From IMG/VR virus record IMGVR_UViG_3300009509_000086, positions 1 to 35,028 of that record: a stretch of 35,028 nt of DNA, one strand, 5' to 3'. This DNA is from a virus. A program made the position numbers and the translations under genes. Under the pieces are notes generated by a model that was not told the DNA's origin, ran no database searches, and saw only the letters and a program-made list of their open reading frames with translations. Position 1 is the first letter of the stretch. Each line of letters starts with the position of its first letter. This document shows, piece after piece, positions 17,624 through 33,945 of the stretch.

Positions 17624-18025
17624 CTAAATTGCTAAGATCAACTCGCACAACGCCGAGGCGAGGGCCGCCTCATGCGTTGCCAGCGCCAAGGCGTGGGTGA
17701 TAGCATATGCACAATATGCCGCCCACACCCCGGCGCGGGCGGCATCATCTGCATAATACGAGTCGGCGGCGGCACGATACGTCTCCCACGCCAGATTGAC
17801 GGCTGCACGATATATCTCCTGCGCCGGGGCGATGGCGGCGCGATACGTCTTCTGCGTCAGTGGGGGCGCAAAGCGCACCAGCCACTCCACATCAAGCCCC
17901 ACGCGCAAGGCCAATAGCACATTGGCCTCGGTCACGACGGCGAGGACACCGAAGGTGGCGCGGAACAATGCCGCCTGCCTCGCGCACCCCTGTTCCTCTA
18001 ACCATTCAGCCGTTATTGTCTGCAT
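17624..18025 (-). CDS. Alanine-rich repeat protein A (paralogue family)
   Basis: A 133-residue protein. The N-terminal domain begins MQTITAEWLEEQGCARQ and continues ALFRATFG...VTEANVLLAL...LDVEWL, shared with three other genes in this window. The rest consists of degenerate 11-residue units of the type YRAAIAPAQE. The start lies inside the end of the upstream paralogue (20-base overlap). Similar repeat proteins with an 'EWL..C..Q...F' head occur in many phages, but I know no function. It is the shortest of the three tandem copies. Confidence 0.6.
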   Translation of the reverse strand: MQTITAEWLEEQGCARQAALFRATFGVLAVVTEANVLLALRVGLDVEWLVRFAPPLTQKTYRAAIAPAQEIYRAAVNLAWETYRAAADSYYADDAARAGVWAAYCAYAITHALALATHEAALASALCELILAI

Positions 18026-18096
18026 GGTCGTCCTCCTCGATTGCCAAGATCGCCGCGCACAGCGCCGGGGCGATGGCCGCATGATATATCGCCCAC
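18006..18096 (-). repeat. Duplicated junction of the alanine-rich paralogues
   Basis: This block (gene end plus next gene start) is nearly the same as 18607-18697, differing at few bases over about 80 positions. The start part (GACGACCATGCAGA and the next codons) recurs on the plus strand at 23981-24009, and the end part at 24270-24312. These are remains of gene duplication. Confidence 0.75.
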
Positions 18097-18626
18097 GCCG
18101 GGGCAACGGCCTCCTCATATACCGCCTCGGCTGGGGCGCAGGCTGCGATAAGCGCCGCCCGCGCCGGGGCGGTAGTCTTGTCGTATATCTCCCAGGCCTG
18201 GGCGCAGGCATTACGATAGGCTATGCGCGCCTGGATAACGGCCTCGTCCGTCCGAACATATGTAATGAGGGCTTTTTCATAGGCATCACGCGCCGGGGCG
18301 GTGGCTTTTTCAAATGCCGCATCTGCCGGTGCAATAGCCACCTCAAATTCCGCCCGCGCCGGGGCGGTGGCGGCATAGTAGACTTTCCGCGCCGGGGCGG
18401 TGGCTGCGCAAAATGCCGACCATGCCTGCACGCGGACGCCAGCATATACTACGTTTGTCGGGGGGGGCGCAAACGGCATCAGCCATTCTACGTCAAGTCC
18501 GGCGTCCAGCGCCCGCAGCACGTTGGCCTCGGTCACGACGGCGGCGTCGCCGAAGGTGGCGCGGAATAATTCAACCTCCCCCGTGCACCCCTGTTCCTCT
18601 AGCCATTCAGCCGTTATTGTCTGCAT
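18006..18626 (-). CDS. Alanine-rich repeat protein B (paralogue family)
   Basis: A 206-residue protein with the same head (MQTITAEWLEEQGC, VELFRATFGDAAVVTEANVL, LDVEWLMPFAPP) as copies A and C. It is followed by about ten units near 11 residues with the pattern (Y/F)..A.APARAA. The hendecad spacing predicts a long helix or coiled coil. It ends PALCAAILAI followed by EEDDHADNNG, the last codons overlapping the start of copy A. Within the repeats the code is highly GC-biased, so the opposite strand also looks open. Confidence 0.63.
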   Translation of the reverse strand: MQTITAEWLEEQGCTGEVELFRATFGDAAVVTEANVLRALDAGLDVEWLMPFAPPPTNVVYAGVRVQAWSAFCAATAPARKVYYAATAPARAEFEVAIAPADAAFEKATAPARDAYEKALITYVRTDEAVIQARIAYRNACAQAWEIYDKTTAPARAALIAACAPAEAVYEEAVAPAWAIYHAAIAPALCAAILAIEEDDHADNNG

Positions 18627-19254
18627 GGTCGTCCTCCACAATCGCCAAGATCGCCGCGCACAGCGCTGGGGCGATGGCCGCATGATATGCCGCGCGCGCC
18701 GGGGCAACGGCCTTCTCATATGCCGCCTCTGCCGGGGCGAGGGTCTTGATAAGCGCCGCCCACGCCGGGGCGCGGGTCTTACGAAATGCCATCCATGCCT
18801 GGGCAACGGCTTGGCGATATGCCTCTCGCGCCGAGATAATAGTTTCCTCAAATGCCGCATCTAGTATAGATATGGTATCGAACGTTTGGCGGACGGCGGC
18901 GTCGCGGGCCTCCAATGCCTGGGCGATGGCCGCATTGCGCGCCACATCTGCCGGGGCGGTGGCCTCCTCGTATGTCTCCCAGGCCGGATCGGTGGCCGCA
19001 ATAAACGCGGCCCAGGCCGGAGCGATGGCTTCGAGATACCCCTCCCGCGCGGATACGATGGCCGCATGGCACACCGCCCGCGCCGAATCGGGCGCAAACG
19101 GCATCAGCCATTCCAGGTAAATCCCGGTGCGCAATGCCAATAGCACATTGACCGCAGTTACAGGGGCGGCGTCATCGAAGGTGGCGCGAAATAACGCCAG
19201 TTGTTCTCCAGATATATTCTTATCCTCTAACCATTTAGCCGTTATGACTCGCAT
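18607..19254 (-). CDS. Alanine-rich repeat protein C (paralogue family), first gene of the leftward operon
   Basis: A 215-residue protein. The head domain is more divergent (MRVITAKWLEDKNISGEQLA, LFRATFDDAAPVTAVNVLLA) than in A and B, but the layout is the same, followed by hendecad-like units (AYEKAVAPARAAYHAAIAPA). The ATG follows AGAGGAGACAAATC. It ends in the same PALCAAILAI ... DDHADNNG segment that overlaps the start of copy B. This is the promoter-proximal gene of the leftward operon. Confidence 0.63.
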   Translation of the reverse strand: MRVITAKWLEDKNISGEQLALFRATFDDAAPVTAVNVLLALRTGIYLEWLMPFAPDSARAVCHAAIVSAREGYLEAIAPAWAAFIAATDPAWETYEEATAPADVARNAAIAQALEARDAAVRQTFDTISILDAAFEETIISAREAYRQAVAQAWMAFRKTRAPAWAALIKTLAPAEAAYEKAVAPARAAYHAAIAPALCAAILAIVEDDHADNNG

Positions 19255-19357
19255 GATTTGTCTCCTCTTGCTATCAATAGAATGCCCTGTCACCGCCCGG
19301 CAATTCGCGCCGGGGCGGTCGCCCCATCCGGGGGCGGGGTGGCAGCATTATAATTAA

Positions 19358-19414: not shown

Positions 19415-19474
19415 TTCATAACGATTGGCGGGCGCGGCGGCGGCGTGAAGAAGGGCGGGGGCGCGCCGCGCATT

Positions 19475-19503
19475 TTGCATAGAAAGCGCCCTTGATATAT
19501 ACT
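19475..19503 (+). promoter_or_regulatory. Sigma-70-like promoter for the replication block
   Basis: TTGCAT, a spacer of 17 bases, then TATACT. The expected start near 19510 leaves a leader of about 100 bases before the phosphoesterase gene. Confidence 0.62.
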
Positions 19504-19611: not shown

Positions 19612-20499
19612 TTGATAACACTTCACCCCGTTCCGATACAAGTTTCATCTCGGCGCTCCATCCATCCGCACTTTCATTTAACGGATACCCATGTAGGACA
19701 CGCGGCCTGTCATGAGGCTATGCTGCGGGCACATGTGGCCTGGATCGCCAAGCATCCTACCGCCACCTGGGGCGGCGGCGGCGATTACATAGACGCCATA
19801 ATCCATACCGATAAACGATTTCGCGCGTCCTCCGTTGACAAGCGGGTTATACAGGATGATATTGCCACCGCACAGGTAGAGTTATTCTTAGATATTTTCA
19901 CCCCGATTGCCTCCCGTTGCCTCTATTTGGCAATGGGCAATCATGAGGATGTCCTACAACGCAATTATGGCTATAGCGCCTACAATGCAATCCTGCGGGG
20001 GATCGCGGCGCAGGGGGAAAATAGACTTGCCGATCTTGCGCTTGGCTGGGGAGGATTCGTAAAATTCAGGATCGTTTGGGAGAAAGAGACCGGGGCTATG
20101 ACCGGCAAGACTATTATGTTTTATGTCCATCACGGATCAATAAATGGCCGAAAAAAGGGGGCTATTGGGTTAAGGGCCGAGGAGGTGATGCAAACCTACG
20201 AGGCCGATTTGTACTTTATGGGCCATCGCCATAACCGAGATATCATTACAAAAGTCGTTGTGCGGTCATCCGGCAAGGGGAGTGTCCTACATCGGCGCAT
20301 CTGTGTTTGGGGCGGCAGTTATATGCACCCGTATAATCCGCGCATTGATGGATTGCCCACGCCACATTATGCAGACGCCAAACAGCTACCCCCGGAAGCG
20401 CCAGGCTGCGTTCCAGTTTTGATTATGCCCGATGGTCAATTTACGCCAGTGATCGGGGATGATCCAATGGCGATTCTAGACGGGTTGCTTGGCGATTAA
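19612..20499 (+). CDS. Calcineurin-like metallophosphoesterase (putative nuclease)
   Basis: A 295-residue protein. The metal-binding motifs appear in order: TDTHVGH (about 24-30), GGDYID (about 55), MGNHED (about 107), VHHG (about 172) and GHRHN (about 204). This matches calcineurin-type phosphoesterases, including Mre11/SbcD-like phage proteins, which hydrolyse phosphodiester bonds using two metals. The start is TTG with AGGAGAGG upstream. It opens the replication/recombination block and precedes ERF, which suits a role in end processing, but a nucleotidase or other phosphatase is not excluded. Confidence 0.82.
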   Translation: MITLHPVPIQVSSRRSIHPHFHLTDTHVGHAACHEAMLRAHVAWIAKHPTATWGGGGDYIDAIIHTDKRFRASSVDKRVIQDDIATAQVELFLDIFTPIASRCLYLAMGNHEDVLQRNYGYSAYNAILRGIAAQGENRLADLALGWGGFVKFRIVWEKETGAMTGKTIMFYVHHGSINGRKKGAIGLRAEEVMQTYEADLYFMGHRHNRDIITKVVVRSSGKGSVLHRRICVWGGSYMHPYNPRIDGLPTPHYADAKQLPPEAPGCVPVLIMPDGQFTPVIGDDPMAILDGLLGD

Positions 20500-20539
20500 T
20501 AATGCGCTATACTAAGGGTGTTCTTAGCTCCTCTTTCTT

Positions 20540-20580
20540 GCCGCCCCTGGTTCCAGCCTCCCAAGAGTACCAGGGGCGGC
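20540..20580 (+). terminator. Stem-loop after the phosphoesterase gene
   Basis: A perfect 12-bp stem (GCCGCCCCTGGT with ACCAGGGGCGGC) carries a 17-base loop. There is no clear T-run. The loop contains CTCCCAAGAG, exactly complementary to the Shine-Dalgarno region of the next gene. It may terminate, attenuate or regulate. Confidence 0.6.
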
Positions 20581-20593
20581 GCGATTCTGCTTA

Positions 20594-20622
20594 TTGACAA
20601 GCAAATGAGATGGCTCTATAAT
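20594..20622 (+). promoter_or_regulatory. Perfect consensus sigma-70 promoter
   Basis: TTGACA, exactly 17 bases, TATAAT. Transcription should start near 20629, giving the ERF gene a leader of under 30 bases. It is the strongest promoter seen in the window. Confidence 0.9.
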
Positions 20623-20656
20623 CTAAGTAACGCAAAATAGCTCTTGGGAGATTCAG

Positions 20657-21382
20657 ATGGCTCAGCATACAGATGCAAATATTCATATGGCTATCGCGGC
20701 AGTGATGGCCCTAGTTGGGTATGTTCAAAAAGAACAAAACTCCAACTTGAACTATTCGTATGCCGGGGAAGCGGCGCTTATCGCTGCGGTGCGCCCGGCG
20801 ATGGTCGCGCATGGAATATATGTCTATCCGTCCGGGGTAGAGGAGTTAACCCAAACGGAATACCGTACCCGGAACGGCACGGCAATGACCCGCGTTACCG
20901 CGCGATTCCGATTCATTTTCGTACACGCCCCATCAAATACCACGATTGAAGTTGAAGTGTTAGGCGAAGGGGCTGATGCAGGAGATAAGGCGTGCAATAA
21001 GGCGATGACGGGCGCGCTCAAATATGCCTTGCGGCAGACGTTTTGTATCGAAACCGGAGACGACCCGGACAGAACGTCAAGCGAGGAGCTTGCCCGATAT
21101 ATGCCGCCTGCGGATTCGGATCAACCGATTGAAGTCGCCGGGCTTGACAATTTGCCAGCCACTACTATGGTAAGCGAGTTAACCAATGCCCAGATGACTG
21201 TGATTTGGGCCAATTGGCAGACAATCGCGCCCGATTGTGATCACATAAATCACTTTCGGAACCGGGTGACCAAGCGGTTTGGCACGGCCAATTTGAAATT
21301 CATTAATACGTGCACGGTACAAGAATTTTTTGAGACTATGGCAATTCCTCATGCGGAATATGAGAAATCGATAAGCGCGTAG
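20657..21382 (+). CDS. erf: ERF-family single-strand annealing protein
   Basis: A 241-residue recombination protein that anneals complementary single strands. The N-terminal half has the family core: NSNLNYSYAGEAALIAAVRP, then GEGADAGDKACNKAMTGALK and YALRQTFCIETGDDPD (about residues 103-137). The C-terminal half is variable and probably binds partners. GGGAG lies six bases before the ATG. It is driven by its own consensus promoter and is grouped with SSB, a nuclease and replication genes, so it probably serves genome recombination and circularisation. Confidence 0.93.
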   Translation: MAQHTDANIHMAIAAVMALVGYVQKEQNSNLNYSYAGEAALIAAVRPAMVAHGIYVYPSGVEELTQTEYRTRNGTAMTRVTARFRFIFVHAPSNTTIEVEVLGEGADAGDKACNKAMTGALKYALRQTFCIETGDDPDRTSSEELARYMPPADSDQPIEVAGLDNLPATTMVSELTNAQMTVIWANWQTIAPDCDHINHFRNRVTKRFGTANLKFINTCTVQEFFETMAIPHAEYEKSISA

Positions 21383-21430
21383 AAAGGAGGGCCGGGGGGA
21401 GGGGAGAAATCCCCTCCCCCAGTTGTTATG
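21383..21430 (+). promoter_or_regulatory. Shine-Dalgarno separated from its start codon by a hairpin
   Basis: AAAGGAGG lies 37 bases before the ATG at 21428, too far for normal initiation. In between, GGGGGAGGGG pairs perfectly with CCCCTCCCCC (21395-21404 and 21411-21420, six-base loop). Folded, the effective distance drops to about 11 bases. It could instead act as an attenuator. Confidence 0.55.
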
Positions 21431-22012
21431 CCAGATTATAACAGCGATTTGGCCTATCTTATCGGCTTAAGAGAAAATACTGATCTTGTCAGGTTCAAAA
21501 TCGGGTTGCGGCTGGCGCGCATGACGCGGGGCAAGCATTATGGGCGGGCGATTATTCCACAGTTAGCCCGCGAAATCGGGTTACAGCGCGCCACCTTACA
21601 GGAATATCGCCAGGTCGCGGTATTCATGGTGTGGATCGGCGGCATTGAACAAAACGCCGCGCCGCGTCTTTTTCACTATCATCCTACTTGGGCATGGTCG
21701 CATCTGCGCCGCGCGGCCCGGATGGATTGGGAGGCGGGGCTTGAGGCGTTATATATGATAGATGATGGGATAATGGACGCCGATTCGCGGCTCACAGATG
21801 AACAGCGACGGCAACTTAATAGCAGTCTTCCCTTATCGCCGGATGCATTTAACGTATTATGTGATATATTGACAGGGCATATCATCCCGCCCCCCGCCTT
21901 ATTCGACGCCGAGATTACGGGGGATGAACTACTCTATACAATATCGCGGCAGATTCCCGAATGGCGGGGGAAGCGGCTGTGGGTGAAGATTACCGAAATC
22001 CGAGACGGCTAA
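21428..22012 (+). CDS. Hypothetical helical protein of the replication block
   Basis: A 194-residue protein. The N-terminal 110 residues look like an HTH-containing helical domain (IPQLAREIGLQRATLQEYRQ, VAVFMVWIG), followed by a Trp-rich part (YHPTWAWSHLRRAAR, MDWEAGLEAL) and a C-terminal charged region (EWRGKRLWVKITEI). The HTH hint suggests DNA binding, but I recognise no family. It follows ERF, and its translation may depend on the bridging hairpin upstream. Confidence 0.58.
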   Translation: MPDYNSDLAYLIGLRENTDLVRFKIGLRLARMTRGKHYGRAIIPQLAREIGLQRATLQEYRQVAVFMVWIGGIEQNAAPRLFHYHPTWAWSHLRRAARMDWEAGLEALYMIDDGIMDADSRLTDEQRRQLNSSLPLSPDAFNVLCDILTGHIIPPPALFDAEITGDELLYTISRQIPEWRGKRLWVKITEIRDG

Positions 22013-22019
22013 ATTGCCC

Positions 22020-22048
22020 TTGACAAATCAAGAATAAAGGTCTAAGAT
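22020..22048 (+). promoter_or_regulatory. Sigma-70 promoter upstream of a terminator
   Basis: TTGACA, 17 bases, TAAGAT. The predicted start is near 22055, about 40 bases before a strong terminator stem and 142 bases before the initiator ATG. Confidence 0.8.
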
Positions 22049-22054
22049 ATGTAT

Positions 22055-22172
22055 ACAAATGCGGACAGCGCCCGCCAGTACCCGGAGATGAAAGCCCCCA
22101 ATGCGAGGCTTTGGCTACCCCAACGATCCGGGGGGGGTGCGCTGAGGCCAAAGTCTCGCAATGGGGGTTTTT
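22055..22172 (+). ncRNA. Candidate small RNA or attenuated leader of the replication gene
   Basis: Promoter and terminator together define a transcript of about 118 nt without a convincing ORF. The 3' half is a long stem with an inner CCCC/GGGG hairpin. It could be an independent RNA or the leader of the initiator mRNA, with the terminator as an attenuator. No known RNA family is recognised. Confidence 0.55.
22095..22172 (+). terminator. Rho-independent terminator before the replication initiator
   Basis: CCCCCA.TGCGAG.CTTTGGC pairs with GCCAAAG.CTCGCA.TGGGGG (about 19 pairs, one mismatch, one G-T), followed directly by TTTTT. An ATG inside its 3' arm (22161) is in frame with the initiator but would be sequestered. 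Confidence 0.85.
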
Positions 22173-22196
22173 GATTTAATAAAGAGGCATAGCGCT

Positions 22197-23018
22197 ATGG
22201 GGGATAGTGATAGTATCCGAGATGTTCGTAAACAACCCTTCGCCTGGTTTGATAAGGCGCTCATCATCCGAGATGGAGAAGAATTAGGGGCACAGGCTAT
22301 CGCGGTGTACTGTGTGTTGTCAGCTTATGCGAATAACGATACCGGGCAAGCATTCCCATCGGTCAATACCATCGCCAAACAATGTGGGATAACGCCGCCA
22401 ACGGCGCATAAGGCGCTTGCCACATTATCACGTATGGGGTGGATTGCTATTGAAGCGCGGAAAGCGGCCAGTGGCGGGCATCTCAGTAATCAATATACGC
22501 TACTCGATTGCCCATCCCCCCAATTAGATTTATACCCCCCTATAAATGACGTTTGCCCCCCTCCTAAACCCGGTTTGGTACCCCCTACCCAACCAGGTTT
22601 ACACGAACAACAAGAAGCTATAACTAAAATAACTAAACAAGAATCGCAAAAGCCGCTCACAGACTGGCAACAGCGCATAAAAACATATGCCGCCGCCTTA
22701 TGTGCTCTCACCGGGGATGATATAAATATCTCTAAAATTGCGAGCCGGGCGGGGAAAATAGCGGCCATGCACCTTAAGGCGGGGTATGGCGTATCAGATA
22801 TAGCCAATTTTAACCAATATTGGTATGCCAATGATTGGCGCGGCAAAAAAGGACAGCCCCCTACATTGACACAGGTAGAAACTGAAATCGGGAAAATACG
22901 TAGTAGCGCGGCCCAATCGCCATTGCCGCCCCCGCCCGAATTAGATGAGGGATTAAAGCGGCGGGCGCAAGCATTTGGACGAAAAGAAACACAATGCCCT
23001 GCCGGGCATGAGGGGTAA
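22197..23018 (+). CDS. Replication initiator (winged-helix, lambda O/DnaD-like)
   Basis: A 273-residue protein. Residues 10-95 form a winged-helix domain typical of phage replication proteins (AIAVYCVLSAYANNDTGQAF, PSVNTIAKQCGITPPTAHKA, LATLSRMGWIAIE). A Pro-rich linker follows (about 100-145), then a helical domain with YWYANDWRGKKG. I choose the ATG after AAGAGG rather than one inside the terminator stem. The DNA of the linker has evenly spaced C-tracts and an A-rich stretch like an internal origin. The helicase loader gene follows at once. Confidence 0.75.
   Translation: MGDSDSIRDVRKQPFAWFDKALIIRDGEELGAQAIAVYCVLSAYANNDTGQAFPSVNTIAKQCGITPPTAHKALATLSRMGWIAIEARKAASGGHLSNQYTLLDCPSPQLDLYPPINDVCPPPKPGLVPPTQPGLHEQQEAITKITKQESQKPLTDWQQRIKTYAAALCALTGDDINISKIASRAGKIAAMHLKAGYGVSDIANFNQYWYANDWRGKKGQPPTLTQVETEIGKIRSSAAQSPLPPPPELDEGLKRRAQAFGRKETQCPAGHEG
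22510..22660 (+). other. Candidate replication origin inside the initiator gene
   Basis: Four C5-C6 tracts begin at 22516, 22535, 22556 and 22581, spaced about two helical turns, each preceded by T-rich and three followed by A-rich bases. About 50 bases of A-rich sequence follow (22600-22660). Lambda has iterons next to an A/T stretch in gene O. The parallel is by layout only. Confidence 0.4.
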
Positions 23019-26370: not shown

Positions 26371-26589
26371 ATGATGAACTTCTGGGACTTGCAATATTAT
26401 GAAAAGAAGTGGGGCAAGTTCTGGGGTGAAACCGTTGCACGCTGTTTTTGCTGCGGGCGCTTCGTTTCATACGACAAGGTAATACATGCCCCGGCATGGG
26501 AAACGCACGCCCTGAGTTATGAGCCGTGCGATGTTTTTGTTCCTCTATGCCCACAATGTACAGGCGAGGTGAACGATGAAAGCGATTGA
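26371..26589 (+). CDS. Small zinc-ribbon protein
   Basis: A 72-residue protein. RCFCCGRFVS and PLCPQC give two Cys pairs 40 residues apart, as in zinc ribbons. GGGAGGATTTTACAC precedes the ATG. Its last seven residues (EVNDESD) are encoded by the start of the 120-bp duplicated block and also end the protein at 27388. It may bind nucleic acid or protein. No named family. Confidence 0.58.
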   Translation: MMNFWDLQYYEKKWGKFWGETVARCFCCGRFVSYDKVIHAPAWETHALSYEPCDVFVPLCPQCTGEVNDESD

Positions 26590-26685
26590 AATCCAAAAGC
26601 TAATCAAGATCATTCGCACCAAACCGTATAAGCGCCCGGCGCGCCTGCGTGGTGGGCAGTTTTTGATTCGGAGGTGAACGATGAA
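26566..26685 (+). repeat. 120-bp exact direct repeat, copy 1
   Basis: This block is identical to 27365-27484 (offset 799). It contains the end of the upstream gene, a complete 33-codon frame, and a Shine-Dalgarno (GGAGGTGAACG) leading to the next ATG. Confidence 0.95.
26576..26677 (+). CDS. 33-residue basic peptide, copy 1
   Basis: MKAIEIQKLIKIIRTKPYKR followed by PARLRGGQFLIRR. A helical start and a strongly basic end suggest nucleic-acid contact. GAGGTGAAC precedes the ATG, which lies inside the end of the zinc-ribbon gene. Perfect conservation in two copies with flanking ribosome sites supports a translated peptide, but recent duplication could also explain it. Confidence 0.5.
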   Translation: MKAIEIQKLIKIIRTKPYKRPARLRGGQFLIRR

Positions 26686-27388
26686 TGAGACACTCTACAA
26701 GGTCACCGGGCCGGACGGCACAGCCTGGCACGGCGGCACGGGGAAATGGCCGTTGCCGCAGGGTGAGCAGCCCGGCGATTGGGTTGAGGTCGATGGCGAT
26801 CTCGTCCCATGCAAGAACGGGCTGCATCTGTGCAATGACCAGACCTTAATCGATTGGCTCGGCCCGGTGATCTGGCGGCCTGAATATGACGGGGAACGAT
26901 TAGACACGGACAATAAAATCGTTGTGCGTCGGGCGCGTCTATTATTCCGCGTCGAGGCGTGGAATGCGCGCACGGCGCGGCTATTTGCCTGCGACTGCGC
27001 AGATCAGGCATTGGCAGTATTGGGCGCGGATAGGGTTGACCAATATAGCGTCGAGGCTATCCGGGTGGCCCGGTTGTTCGCCGTTGGACAGGCAACCCGC
27101 GAGGAGTTGGCCGCCGCTAGGGATGCCGCTAGGGCCGCCGCTAGGGATGCCGCTAGGGCCAGCGCTAGGGATGCCGCTCGGGATGCCGCTTGGGCCGCCG
27201 CTTGGGCCGCCGCTAGGGCCGCCGCTTGGGATGCCGCTTGGGCCGCCGCTAGGGCCGCCGCCGGGGACGCCACTTGGGATGCCGCTAGGGATGCCGCTTG
27301 GGATACCGCCGGGGATGCCGCTAGGGAGTGGCAGACTAAACGATTGCTGCAATATCTAAATGGAGAGGTGAACGATGAAAGCGATTGA
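26681..27388 (+). CDS. Alanine-repeat protein with C.NGLHLC motif
   Basis: A 235-residue protein. The N-terminal 135 residues (LYKVTGPDGTAWHGG, VPCKNGLHLCND, RRARLLFRVEAWNARTARLF) match a phage family of unknown function that has a short beta-domain with 'C-NGLH-C'. Residues about 143-215 are four-residue units AARD/AAWA, encoded by an imperfect 12-bp tandem repeat. The helix would be long with Trp/Arg faces. The gene lies exactly between the two 120-bp repeats. Confidence 0.62.
   Translation: MNETLYKVTGPDGTAWHGGTGKWPLPQGEQPGDWVEVDGDLVPCKNGLHLCNDQTLIDWLGPVIWRPEYDGERLDTDNKIVVRRARLLFRVEAWNARTARLFACDCADQALAVLGADRVDQYSVEAIRVARLFAVGQATREELAAARDAARAAARDAARASARDAARDAAWAAAWAAARAAAWDAAWAAARAAAGDATWDAARDAAWDTAGDAAREWQTKRLLQYLNGEVNDESD
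27111..27328 (+). repeat. 12-bp tandem repeat tract within the alanine-repeat gene
   Basis: About 18 imperfect copies of GCCGCTAGGGAT or GCCGCTTGGGCC encode A-A-R-D and A-A-W-A. Copy number may vary by slippage in steps of four residues without breaking the frame. Confidence 0.9.
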
Positions 27389-27484
27389 AATCCAAAAGCT
27401 AATCAAGATCATTCGCACCAAACCGTATAAGCGCCCGGCGCGCCTGCGTGGTGGGCAGTTTTTGATTCGGAGGTGAACGATGAA
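27365..27484 (+). repeat. 120-bp exact direct repeat, copy 2
   Basis: It is identical to copy 1. Recombination between the copies would delete the alanine-repeat gene and one 33-codon frame, 799 bp in all. Confidence 0.95.
27375..27476 (+). CDS. 33-residue basic peptide, copy 2
   Basis: It is identical in DNA and protein to the frame in copy 1. It precedes a different gene, so the peptide plus ribosome site acts as a movable leader. Confidence 0.5.
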   Translation: MKAIEIQKLIKIIRTKPYKRPARLRGGQFLIRR

Positions 27485-27695
27485 CGACATTCCGCATATT
27501 AGGCGATTCAAGACGCAACGCTGTATCGGCTACGATGGTGACCTAGCGTGGTATTACTGCGAGGTGGTACTGGCCGACGGGCGTGAAGTGACCGGGTATG
27601 CCGCCTACAGGCTGCTAGAGTATGGCATCTGCCAATGGGCGACGATGCGCCCAGTGTTACGGTGGACTTGGAGTCAGATTTCGTGCAAGAGGTGA
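27480..27695 (+). CDS. Small hypothetical protein with probable C-terminal frameshift
   Basis: A 71-residue protein with GGAGGTGAACG before the ATG. WYYCEVVLADGREVTGYAAY is a likely beta hairpin region. The DNA near 27636-27678 matches 28584-28626 except for one missing base after GTGTTA. With it, the end would read VDLESDFVQEVNE and stop at 27701-27703, as in the related gene. As it stands it ends in an unrelated basic tail (LRWTWSQISCKR). Confidence 0.5.
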   Translation: MNDIPHIRRFKTQRCIGYDGDLAWYYCEVVLADGREVTGYAAYRLLEYGICQWATMRPVLRWTWSQISCKR

Positions 27696-27714
27696 ATGAG
27701 TGAGGGGGGCGGTG

Positions 27715-28485
27715 ATGCAAATCATCTCCTACGGCGGCGGCATCCAGACTGTCGCCCTTGCCATCCTGAACGCGACGGGGCAGGTGACACCCCGCGCTGA
27801 GGTCGCCGTGTTTGCCGATCCCGGCGCTGAGATGCCGGGGACATACCGGCACATCGAGATCATGCAGCCCTGGTTGGCCGAGCGGGGGATGGAACTGGTA
27901 ACGGTCAGGCAAGATCGCTTCCCGCCATTGGAGCAGAACATTAGAGAGCGGAGCACGACTATTCCTGTGCGCTGGAATAACGGGAAAGAGGGAGGTATAG
28001 GGCGGCGCGCGTGTACAACCCAATGGAAAATCGAGCCTATCAACAAGTGGCTAAAAGCCCAGGGTGTCACGCACGCGATAACACAGATTGGATTCAGCCT
28101 GGATGAGTTCCACCGCATGAGGCCAAGCCCAATCAAGTGGATAGAAAATCGTTATCCGCTAATTGATATGGGTCTATCTCGTGATGATTGCCGCCGCATT
28201 ATTGAAGAGGTAAAGCTACCGCAGCCGCCCAAAAGCGCCTGCTATTTTTGCCCGCTCAACAATGTAACCGGGTGGCAGTTGTTGGCAGTATATCACCCTG
28301 ATCTATTCGACAAGGCGTGCGAATTAGAACGTGCCGTTAATCGGCGCGGCGATTATAACGATGGTAAACCGGTGTATCTGTCATCCCGCTTGCGGCCACT
28401 GGTTAAGGCATTCAGCAAGCACCAGTTGCCCCTACCGGGGATGCCAGAGCCGGACGACATGTGCGGCGGGTATTGCTTTGTGTGA
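27715..28485 (+). CDS. PAPS-reductase/PP-loop ATPase-like protein
   Basis: A 256-residue protein. The N-terminal SYGGGIQTVALAIL is a modified PP-loop of the adenine-nucleotide alpha hydrolase fold, followed by VAVFADPGAEMPGTYRHIE, typical of phage PAPS-reductase-like proteins. ACYFCPLNN and CGGYCFV supply two Cys pairs, as in relatives with a metal site. Such proteins often lie near DNA methylases and nucleases in phages. A role in DNA or tRNA modification is suspected but unproven. I choose the ATG over a GTG five codons upstream because GAGGGGGG then has good spacing. Confidence 0.78.
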   Translation: MQIISYGGGIQTVALAILNATGQVTPRAEVAVFADPGAEMPGTYRHIEIMQPWLAERGMELVTVRQDRFPPLEQNIRERSTTIPVRWNNGKEGGIGRRACTTQWKIEPINKWLKAQGVTHAITQIGFSLDEFHRMRPSPIKWIENRYPLIDMGLSRDDCRRIIEEVKLPQPPKSACYFCPLNNVTGWQLLAVYHPDLFDKACELERAVNRRGDYNDGKPVYLSSRLRPLVKAFSKHQLPLPGMPEPDDMCGGYCFV

Positions 28486-28643: not shown

Positions 28644-29110
28644 TATTTCAACATACCTGGAAGGACGTATTATCCGGGCGCAAGACGCAGACGCGGCGGC
28701 TGGTGGATGCTGATGACGAGATGGACTACTATCGCCGCGATGCATCGTGGGTGAAGTCCAGGCGCCCGCAGCGTGTAAAAAAGAATGGGCGTACTAAGTG
28801 GTGCGTTGGCAACCGATATGCTGTGCAACCTGGACGCGGCAAGAAAGCCGTTGGCCATATTCGAATTACGGCCATTCGCCGAGAGCGGCTATGGGACATT
28901 ACAGATGCAGATGCTATAGCGGAAGGCTGCAATGCCCGCATCATTGGGAAAATCGGACACGGGGAGCCCCCATTTGCATTTACCGATGTCATTCTGCGAG
29001 CCAGGGGCGAGTTCACTAAATTGTGGGACAGCATCCACACTAAACCCGGTACGCGCTGGGAGGATAACCCGGAAGTCTGGGTTTTGGCGTTTGAGGTGAT
29101 TGATGAATAA
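28640..29110 (+). CDS. ASCH-domain protein
   Basis: A 156-residue protein. The sequence has the ASCH hallmarks: W.DVLSGRKTQTRRLV at the start, then GNRYAVQPGRGKKAVGHIRI and RRERLWDITDADAIAEG, and near the end FTKLWDSIHTKPGTRWEDNP. ASCH domains are PUA-like RNA- or modified-base-binding folds and are common in phages. The start lies in an ATGA overlap. The neighbours (PAPS-reductase-like, methylases) suggest a nucleic-acid modification island. Confidence 0.85.
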   Translation: MIFQHTWKDVLSGRKTQTRRLVDADDEMDYYRRDASWVKSRRPQRVKKNGRTKWCVGNRYAVQPGRGKKAVGHIRITAIRRERLWDITDADAIAEGCNARIIGKIGHGEPPFAFTDVILRARGEFTKLWDSIHTKPGTRWEDNPEVWVLAFEVIDE

Positions 29111-29870
29111 CCGCGCCGCCCTGATGAGCACCGGCAACGGCGACTGGCAAACACCCCCGGAGGTTATCGAGCGGGTTATCGCCGTGCTGGGTGCCATCGA
29201 CCTCGACCCCTGCTCCAATAGCCACGACGATCCGAACGTGCCCGCCGCCAAGCACTTCACCGAGGAGGACGACGGCCTGGCGCAGGAATGGCGCGGGCGG
29301 GTGTACATGAATCCCCCCTACGGGCGCGTGATCGGTAAGTGGGTCGAAAAGCTGGTTGAGGAGTTCGAGGCGGGGCGGGTGACGCAGGCGATTGCGCTCG
29401 TTCCGGCCCGCACCGATACCCGGTGGTTCAAACGTTTCCGGGCGTTCCCGCGCTGCTTCGTGCAGGGGCGGCTGAAGTTCGTTGGGGCGGCGGCGGGAGC
29501 GCCGTTTCCATCGGCGATTATCGGGGTGGGGGTGAGCGTGGAGGCGTTGGCAGAGGGGTTCGGCGATATCGGCGATTGCTTCCCCATAAAGGAGAATAAA
29601 ATGATCTGTTTAAAAATGACCAGTTTAGGTGAACGGTTACGCGGCTTGCGAGTTGCTCAACCCGGCCTTACGCTGAAAGAGGCAGCGCGGGAGACGGGAA
29701 TAACCCTATCTTATCTGAGCGACATCGAGCGCGGAAGGACAATTCCCTCATTGCGCACCCTCGCGAGATTGGCGACGACGTATCGAATGTCCGTCGTTGA
29801 CGTGCTGGCGGGCACAGAATACGCATTTATCCAGGTACGCGCAGATGAAGGATGGGGCGATGAGCGATGA
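29103..29870 (+). CDS. Dam-type adenine methyltransferase fused to an XRE-type HTH domain
   Basis: A 255-residue protein. Residues 1-160 match phage N6-adenine methyltransferases: STGNGDWQTPPEVIERV, IDLDPCSNSHDD, DGLAQEWRGRVYMNPPYGR. The catalytic NPPY is present. Residues about 170-245 are an XRE HTH (SLGERLRGLRVAQPGLTLKE, AARETGITLSYLSDIERGRT, IPSLRTLARLATTYRMSV). The two parts are in one frame, but AAAGGAG and an ATG (29601) lie at the join, so the HTH may also be made alone. I start at the ATG in the GAGGTGATTG context. Confidence 0.82.
   Translation: MNNRAALMSTGNGDWQTPPEVIERVIAVLGAIDLDPCSNSHDDPNVPAAKHFTEEDDGLAQEWRGRVYMNPPYGRVIGKWVEKLVEEFEAGRVTQAIALVPARTDTRWFKRFRAFPRCFVQGRLKFVGAAAGAPFPSAIIGVGVSVEALAEGFGDIGDCFPIKENKMICLKMTSLGERLRGLRVAQPGLTLKEAARETGITLSYLSDIERGRTIPSLRTLARLATTYRMSVVDVLAGTEYAFIQVRADEGWGDER
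29588..29603 (+). promoter_or_regulatory. Internal ribosome site at the methyltransferase-HTH join
   Basis: AAAGGAG lies six bases before an in-frame ATG. It would give a separate HTH protein of about 89 residues. Confidence 0.6.
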
Positions 29871-33119: not shown

Positions 33120-33128
33120 GCGCCAAGA

Positions 33129-33153
33129 GCGCCTGAGTAATCAGGCGCTTTTT
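33129..33153 (+). terminator. Rho-independent terminator between packaging and capsid genes
   Basis: GCGCCTGA, GTAA loop, TCAGGCGC, then TTTTT. It lies ten bases after the Com-like gene, so the protease and capsid are either read through or have another promoter. Confidence 0.92.
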
Positions 33154-33168
33154 GTTAGGGGATATCAC

Positions 33169-33945
33169 ATGCCATATATGATCGTTGAACGTGACGACGA
33201 GTTTTGTGTCCACAAAGAGTTAGACGAAGGCGAGGCGGGGGAGGTCATCAAGTGCCACCCTACCCGGCAGGCCGCCGCCGACCATATGGCGGCATTATAC
33301 GCCGCCACTCAAGACGAAGTTAAAGTGACCGTCAAGGCGTTGCCGGGCGACGACTGGCTATTGGACGTATTGGGCGTGCCGTATGGCGGGCCACATGGCG
33401 GAAAAGACGCACAGGGTGAATACTTCACGCCCGACACCGAATTGTGGTTAGATAAAATCCCGGCCCGGCCCATTGTCTATTTTCATGGCATGGATGAGGA
33501 TCGCGCGCCTGAAATCATTGGGCGCGAAATCGGGCATGAACGGCGCGCTGATGGCGTGTGGTTCAAAGTGGCGCTCGACAAAACTTCACGGCTGGCCCGC
33601 AAAGTTTGGGAAGCCGCCAAACAGGGCTTGGCGCGGGCGTCATCCGGCGCTATCGCGCACCTGGTGCGGACGGCCCGCGATGGGCGAATCGAGGTCTGGC
33701 CTATCGGGGAGTTATCGTTGTTAGATGGGCGAGAGCACCAGCCCGCTAATCAGTATGCAATCGCGATCCCGGCAGCCAAAGCAATATTTGCCCAAGCCGG
33801 GATCGCGTTTCCGGCAGAAGCCACGCAGGAGGGGAAACAGGCGGGGGCGGAAGGCGAACAGCAAAGCGACCCTGCGATTACCGGAATAGATGGCTATCGA
33901 TACTTAAAACTTTTAGCACTTGATGAGGTGTACAACGATGACTGA
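33169..33945 (+). CDS. Prohead maturation protease (S78-like)
   Basis: A 258-residue serine protease that trims the capsid scaffold. LLDVLGVPYGGPHGGKDAQG and YFTPDTELWLD are followed by YFHGMDED (candidate catalytic His about 106) and ASSGAIAHLVR (candidate Ser about 158), then WPIGELSLLDGREHQPAN, typical of HK97-like proteases in environmental phages. An extra N-terminal region of about 45 residues (KELDEGEAGEVIKCHPTRQA) resembles a short hydrolase-accessory fold. The capsid gene starts inside its last codons. Confidence 0.82.
   Translation: MPYMIVERDDEFCVHKELDEGEAGEVIKCHPTRQAAADHMAALYAATQDEVKVTVKALPGDDWLLDVLGVPYGGPHGGKDAQGEYFTPDTELWLDKIPARPIVYFHGMDEDRAPEIIGREIGHERRADGVWFKVALDKTSRLARKVWEAAKQGLARASSGAIAHLVRTARDGRIEVWPIGELSLLDGREHQPANQYAIAIPAAKAIFAQAGIAFPAEATQEGKQAGAEGEQQSDPAITGIDGYRYLKLLALDEVYNDD

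Follow-up and report, generated by a model that had tools for sequence, protein, structure and literature searches.

A possible start-site-dependent translation switch ahead of the erf gene of an uncultured phage

We have examined the leader of a phage recombination gene, erf, in a window of 35,028 nucleotides that comprises the whole of IMG/VR virus record IMGVR_UViG_3300009509_000086 (positions 1 to 35,028). The features of the region are collected in Table 1. The original prediction, made by a model from the letters alone, had named this gene erf and the gene upstream of it a phosphoesterase, and both names are confirmed by the Pfam and PHROG matches, the PHROG family matched by erf being that of Erf-like ssDNA annealing proteins. 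The phosphoesterase gene is co-oriented with erf and may have a weak promoter of its own (19474-19503, 9/12 matches). Upstream, on the minus strand, are three adjoining reading frames (17624-19293) composed of degenerate 33-nt (11-residue) alanine-rich repeats, which are without a PHROG match. Downstream, erf is the first in a run of replication genes. An 11-bp hairpin, GGGGGAGGGGA-GAAA-TCCCCTCCCCC (21395-21420), occupies the gap that follows erf, just ahead of the next gene's start at 21428. Further along the run, a second strong promoter (TTGACA-17-TAAGAT, 22020-22048) precedes a long hairpin of very high stability (22093-22173, z-score -5.3), which carries a T-run and is located ahead of the replication-initiation-type gene. 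The stretch 22020-22195 may be a small RNA gene and its terminator, or else a leader of attenuator-like type.

Table 1. Genes and sequence elements in and around the erf leader
Feature	Position	Strand	Remarks
Calcineurin-like phosphoesterase / DNA repair exonuclease-like gene	19612-20499	+	PF00149, E=2.3e-5; phrog_7339, E=6.9e-13
Perfect hairpin, 12 bp (12/12 pairs)	arms 20540-20551 and 20569-20580	+	no U-tract behind
Putative anti-Shine-Dalgarno arm, CTCCCAAGAG	20558-20567	+	last ten loop bases before the final T
Sigma-70 consensus promoter, TTGACA-17-TATAAT	20594-20622	+	12/12 matches; between the two arms
Putative masked arm, CTCTTGGGAG	20641-20650	+	contains the erf Shine-Dalgarno
erf, Erf-family single-strand annealing protein, 241 aa	20657-21382	+	Pfam PF04404 (ERF), E=1.9e-16; phrog_155, E=3.8e-28
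HTH protein, replication-initiation type	~22196-23018		in the run opened by erf
Possible ATPase			in the erf-led run; AAA-like matches below cut-off
Holliday junction resolvase-like endonuclease and SSB			in the erf-led run

The arms of the hairpin, GCCGCCCCTGGT and ACCAGGGGCGGC, enclose a 17-nt loop (20552-20568, TCCAGCCTCCCAAGAGT), and the loop 10-mer is the exact reverse complement (10/10 nt) of the 10-mer in the erf leader, which is found at two places only in the window, i.e. the two arms. The Shine-Dalgarno (GGGAG/GGAG) is positioned 6 nt ahead of the ATG at 20657. Between the arms, TTGACA (20594-20599) and TATAAT (20617-20622) are separated by a 17-nt spacer; this is the sole 12/12 sigma-70 match between 15000 and 34000, and transcription would be expected to start near 20629. 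All coordinates reported for the hairpin, the two 10-mers and the promoter were found to be exact. Another perfect 12-bp hairpin, with a 22-nt loop, occurs at 33762-33807, within the reading frame 33169-33945.

The inverted orientation of the arms is that needed for RNA pairing, and the promoter is so placed that its own transcript, from the likely start, would lack the upstream strand and keep the Shine-Dalgarno. It is hypothesized that the region acts as a start-site-dependent translation switch through a pseudoknot formed in cis between loop and Shine-Dalgarno, which is the best single reading of the locus, although tentative and of somewhat less than even probability. RNA reading through from the phosphoesterase gene would carry the hairpin, and its loop segment CUCCCAAGAG would pair with CUCUUGGGAG across the erf Shine-Dalgarno. 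The resulting H-type pseudoknot would have a stem 1 of 12 bp, a loop 1 of 6 nt and a stem 2 of 10 bp, with a gap of 60 nt from the hairpin to the second arm, and in the long RNA it would bar ribosomes from erf. RNA begun at the promoter between the arms (~20629) would be without the hairpin, would form a weak 3-bp leader hairpin only and would be translated. In its strict form, in which the pseudoknot spans a strong early promoter and erf is translated only from the RNA of its own promoter and never from read-through RNA, the proposal is more doubtful.

The proposal presupposes that transcripts pass the hairpin. The tail beyond position 20580 (GCGATTCTGCTTATTG) contains no U-tract, and the hairpin is absent from the terminator-scan output. 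For want of a U-tract, a role as intrinsic terminator was ruled out; for the same reason nothing indicates that the phosphoesterase message ends here, and read-through of the hairpin into erf is to be expected. This bears directly on one of the two models offered in the original prediction, in which the 3' end of the phosphoesterase transcript would pair with the erf ribosome site and repress translation. Read as action in trans, a processed or terminated 3' end carrying the hairpin would pair with separate erf mRNAs and repress them in the manner of a 3' UTR-type RNA. Such action would be helped by the short erf transcript, which holds the whole 10-nt target near its 5' end. However, neither a U-tract nor any other sign of a 3' end follows the hairpin, though clear T-tailed terminators occur elsewhere in the genome (22093-22173 and, by eye, 33128-33153), and pairing in cis would be kinetically favoured in a read-through RNA. 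We therefore regard repression in trans as improbable. Of that model, the repression of erf by RNA pairing stands as physically plausible and statistically favoured; the separate phosphoesterase 3' end fits worse than masking in cis, given the missing U-tract.

Folding energies are consistent with the masking of the Shine-Dalgarno in cis. The hairpin (20536-20584) was computed at -28.5 kcal/mol, the duplex of loop and leader at -20.4 kcal/mol, and the stem-2 duplex at -16.6 kcal/mol with initiation included. For the pseudoknot total, the stacking of stem 2 was added to the energy of a fold in which the hairpin is formed and both arms are unpaired, and pseudoknot penalties of 7-12 kcal/mol were applied. 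This gave -57.8 to -62.8 kcal/mol versus -52.8 kcal/mol for the best nested fold, a crude comparison, with stem 2 crossed by some of the pairs left in the fold. By these computed values, the pairing is strong enough for a pseudoknot. In RNA starting from ~20629, opening of the Shine-Dalgarno was calculated to cost only ~2.2 kcal/mol. The low cost in the short RNA and the strong pairing in the long RNA thus lead the anatomy to predict that the long RNA would be silent and the short RNA active. The best nested structure also hides the Shine-Dalgarno, by means of a CUCCU at 20528-20532. Counting against a switch, the nested fold of the region was found to have no extra stability relative to shuffled sequences (z -0.8).

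A serious rival, close behind the switch in cis, is coincidence, which we consider slightly less probable. Here, the erf promoter and the intergenic hairpin would both be real, and the CUCCC of the loop, which resembles an anti-Shine-Dalgarno, would match the erf leader over 10 nt by chance; the hairpin would then be a transcript boundary or a 3'-end stabiliser of the phosphoesterase message. Inverted pairs of ten bases no more than 120 nt apart number 17 in the window versus 4.2 in Markov shuffles, so that such a pair alone is ordinary in this window, and what is unusual is its placement, a hairpin loop against a Shine-Dalgarno. Any pyrimidine loop that contains CUCCC matches a Shine-Dalgarno over 4-5 nt, and the match came to light in a search of 35 kb for anything striking.

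Controls specific to the placement argue the other way. When the loop was shuffled, at least 10 nt complementary to the leader were obtained in 2 of 20000 cases. When the 25 nt ahead of each start were compared with the 225 nt further upstream, the longest complementary run was 10 nt at erf, the maximum for the window, versus 4-8 nt at 46 other window genes and 4-7 nt at a further 76 erf loci drawn from IMG/VR. In 579 kb of phage sequence, a scan for hairpins with a stem of at least 9 bp, a loop of 8-30 nt and a start preceded by a Shine-Dalgarno within 150 nt returned 57 hairpins including that of erf, whose loop pairs over 10 nt, the runner-up reaching 7. Among the 69 hairpins of a smaller scan, two other matches of 9 nt were found anywhere downstream, neither of them linked to a start. 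Extrapolation from these controls puts the chance odds roughly at ~0.1-2% per window, a figure in which the reader's free choice among oddities is uncounted. The original prediction had called a chance match of this length in so short a loop unlikely; by the placement controls this holds, with the post hoc choice still to be counted.

Comparison with relatives was limited to distant ones, the nearest Erf relative having 59% identity. None of the 76 IMG/VR erf loci, all of them at or below this identity, has the pairing, which is thus kept in no relative found, as coincidence would have it. At such distances, its absence would neither refute a leader element nor support it. Leaders differ among these Erf relatives, most of which are without the hairpin or the promoter; one relative (L005/L028) has a TTGACA promoter at a greater distance ahead of erf and lacks the pairing. 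IMG/VR contained no exact pattern match to the stem, to the leader of erf or to the two 10-mers spaced 60-90 nt, and a DNA similarity search with 20400-20800 gave none in the phage collection. The IMG/VR scan returned no relatives of the phosphoesterase; one record, L003, contains a single distant phosphoesterase copy, ~12 kb from the erf of that record. Terminase and portal relatives have 54% and 50% identity, respectively. The one large terminase-related record (L016) has no Erf match, and the portal relatives are on contigs under 10 kb. The single genome-contig match, a Planctomycetota MAG, starts inside erf and so is without the leader. No Rfam covariance model was matched in the whole window at the gathering cut-off, nor in 20480-22260 at E<=1.

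The second model of the original prediction placed operators at the two 10-mers. A phage repressor would bind the quasi-palindrome CTC-N4-GAG at 20558-20567 and 20641-20650 and would loop out or block the erf promoter, the putative operator centres being 83 bp apart (~7.9 helical turns). Both 10-mers have this form, and the motif occurs only four times in the window. Candidate DNA-binding partners are encoded as well, namely an XRE-type helix-turn-helix on a Dam-like methyltransferase and, by eye, an HTH-like stretch in the gene after erf (21428-22012; Pfam match non-significant, E=0.25). However, the other two copies of the motif (6166 and 8759) are inside long reading frames, and no third site was found at the second strong promoter (22020-22048) or in any other intergenic region. 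The half sites are just 3 bp, the identity of the two sites ends at 10 bp, and the hairpin and the exact reverse complementarity of the sites would be left unexplained. Operators and a DNA loop are accordingly weaker as a model than pairing at the RNA level in cis, and we consider them unlikely.

The proposed masking in cis has counterparts in known systems. In phage T4, gene e (lysozyme) and the gene for I-TevI are carried on read-through mRNAs made early, in which the ribosome-binding site is masked, and a late promoter is located inside the upstream part (reviewed in PMC3014915). As with gene e, a structure in the long transcript would cover the Shine-Dalgarno of erf, and RNA begun at a promoter a short way upstream of the ribosome site would be without the 5' strand and would be translated. 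Gene e, however, depends on a plain stem and on T4 late promoters, whereas at erf the partner is 73 nt upstream in the loop of a hairpin, which would make a pseudoknot, and the promoter is a sigma-70 consensus. Also unlike gene e, erf is a recombination gene, and its putative switch is a proposal from sequence. In Staphylococcus aureus, the icaR mRNA has a UCCCCUG in its 3' UTR that has been experimentally proven to pair with the Shine-Dalgarno (PMC3868564). A C-rich anti-Shine-Dalgarno motif in untranslated RNA may likewise block ribosome loading at erf. In icaR, the 3' UTR and the 5' UTR are those of the same mRNA, whereas the motif at erf is between two genes and upstream of its target, with a promoter between the arms. 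The leader pseudoknot of gene 32 in T4 and T2 is the binding nucleus for gp32 and is itself without the Shine-Dalgarno (PMC3014915). In that leader, as in the one proposed for erf, the pseudoknot is a phage structure that precedes the start of a protein handling single-stranded DNA; the gene 32 pseudoknot binds gp32, but nothing at erf points to binding by Erf.

If the switch in cis is real, the position of a promoter relative to an RNA pairing could act as a filter on the transcripts from which a phage recombination gene is expressed, and the logic of gene e and I-TevI would reach an unrelated, uncultured phage in the shape of a pseudoknot. If it is not, the locus provides a useful gauge of how often complementarity between a loop and a ribosome site arises by chance.

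Other features were noted outside the erf region. The Dam-like N6-adenine methyltransferase (29100-29870) has its XRE-type helix-turn-helix domain fused at the C-terminus and is possibly self-regulating; a search of four relatives did not find this fusion. A phosphoadenosine phosphosulfate reductase-like gene (27700-28485; PHROG E=3.2e-39) is located in the early region. A direct repeat of 126 nt, 98% identical between its copies (26563-26688 and 27362-27487; 799 bp spacing), occurs on either side of the gene at 26681-27388, in which, moreover, 12-nt (4-residue) units are repeated in tandem at 27073-27348.
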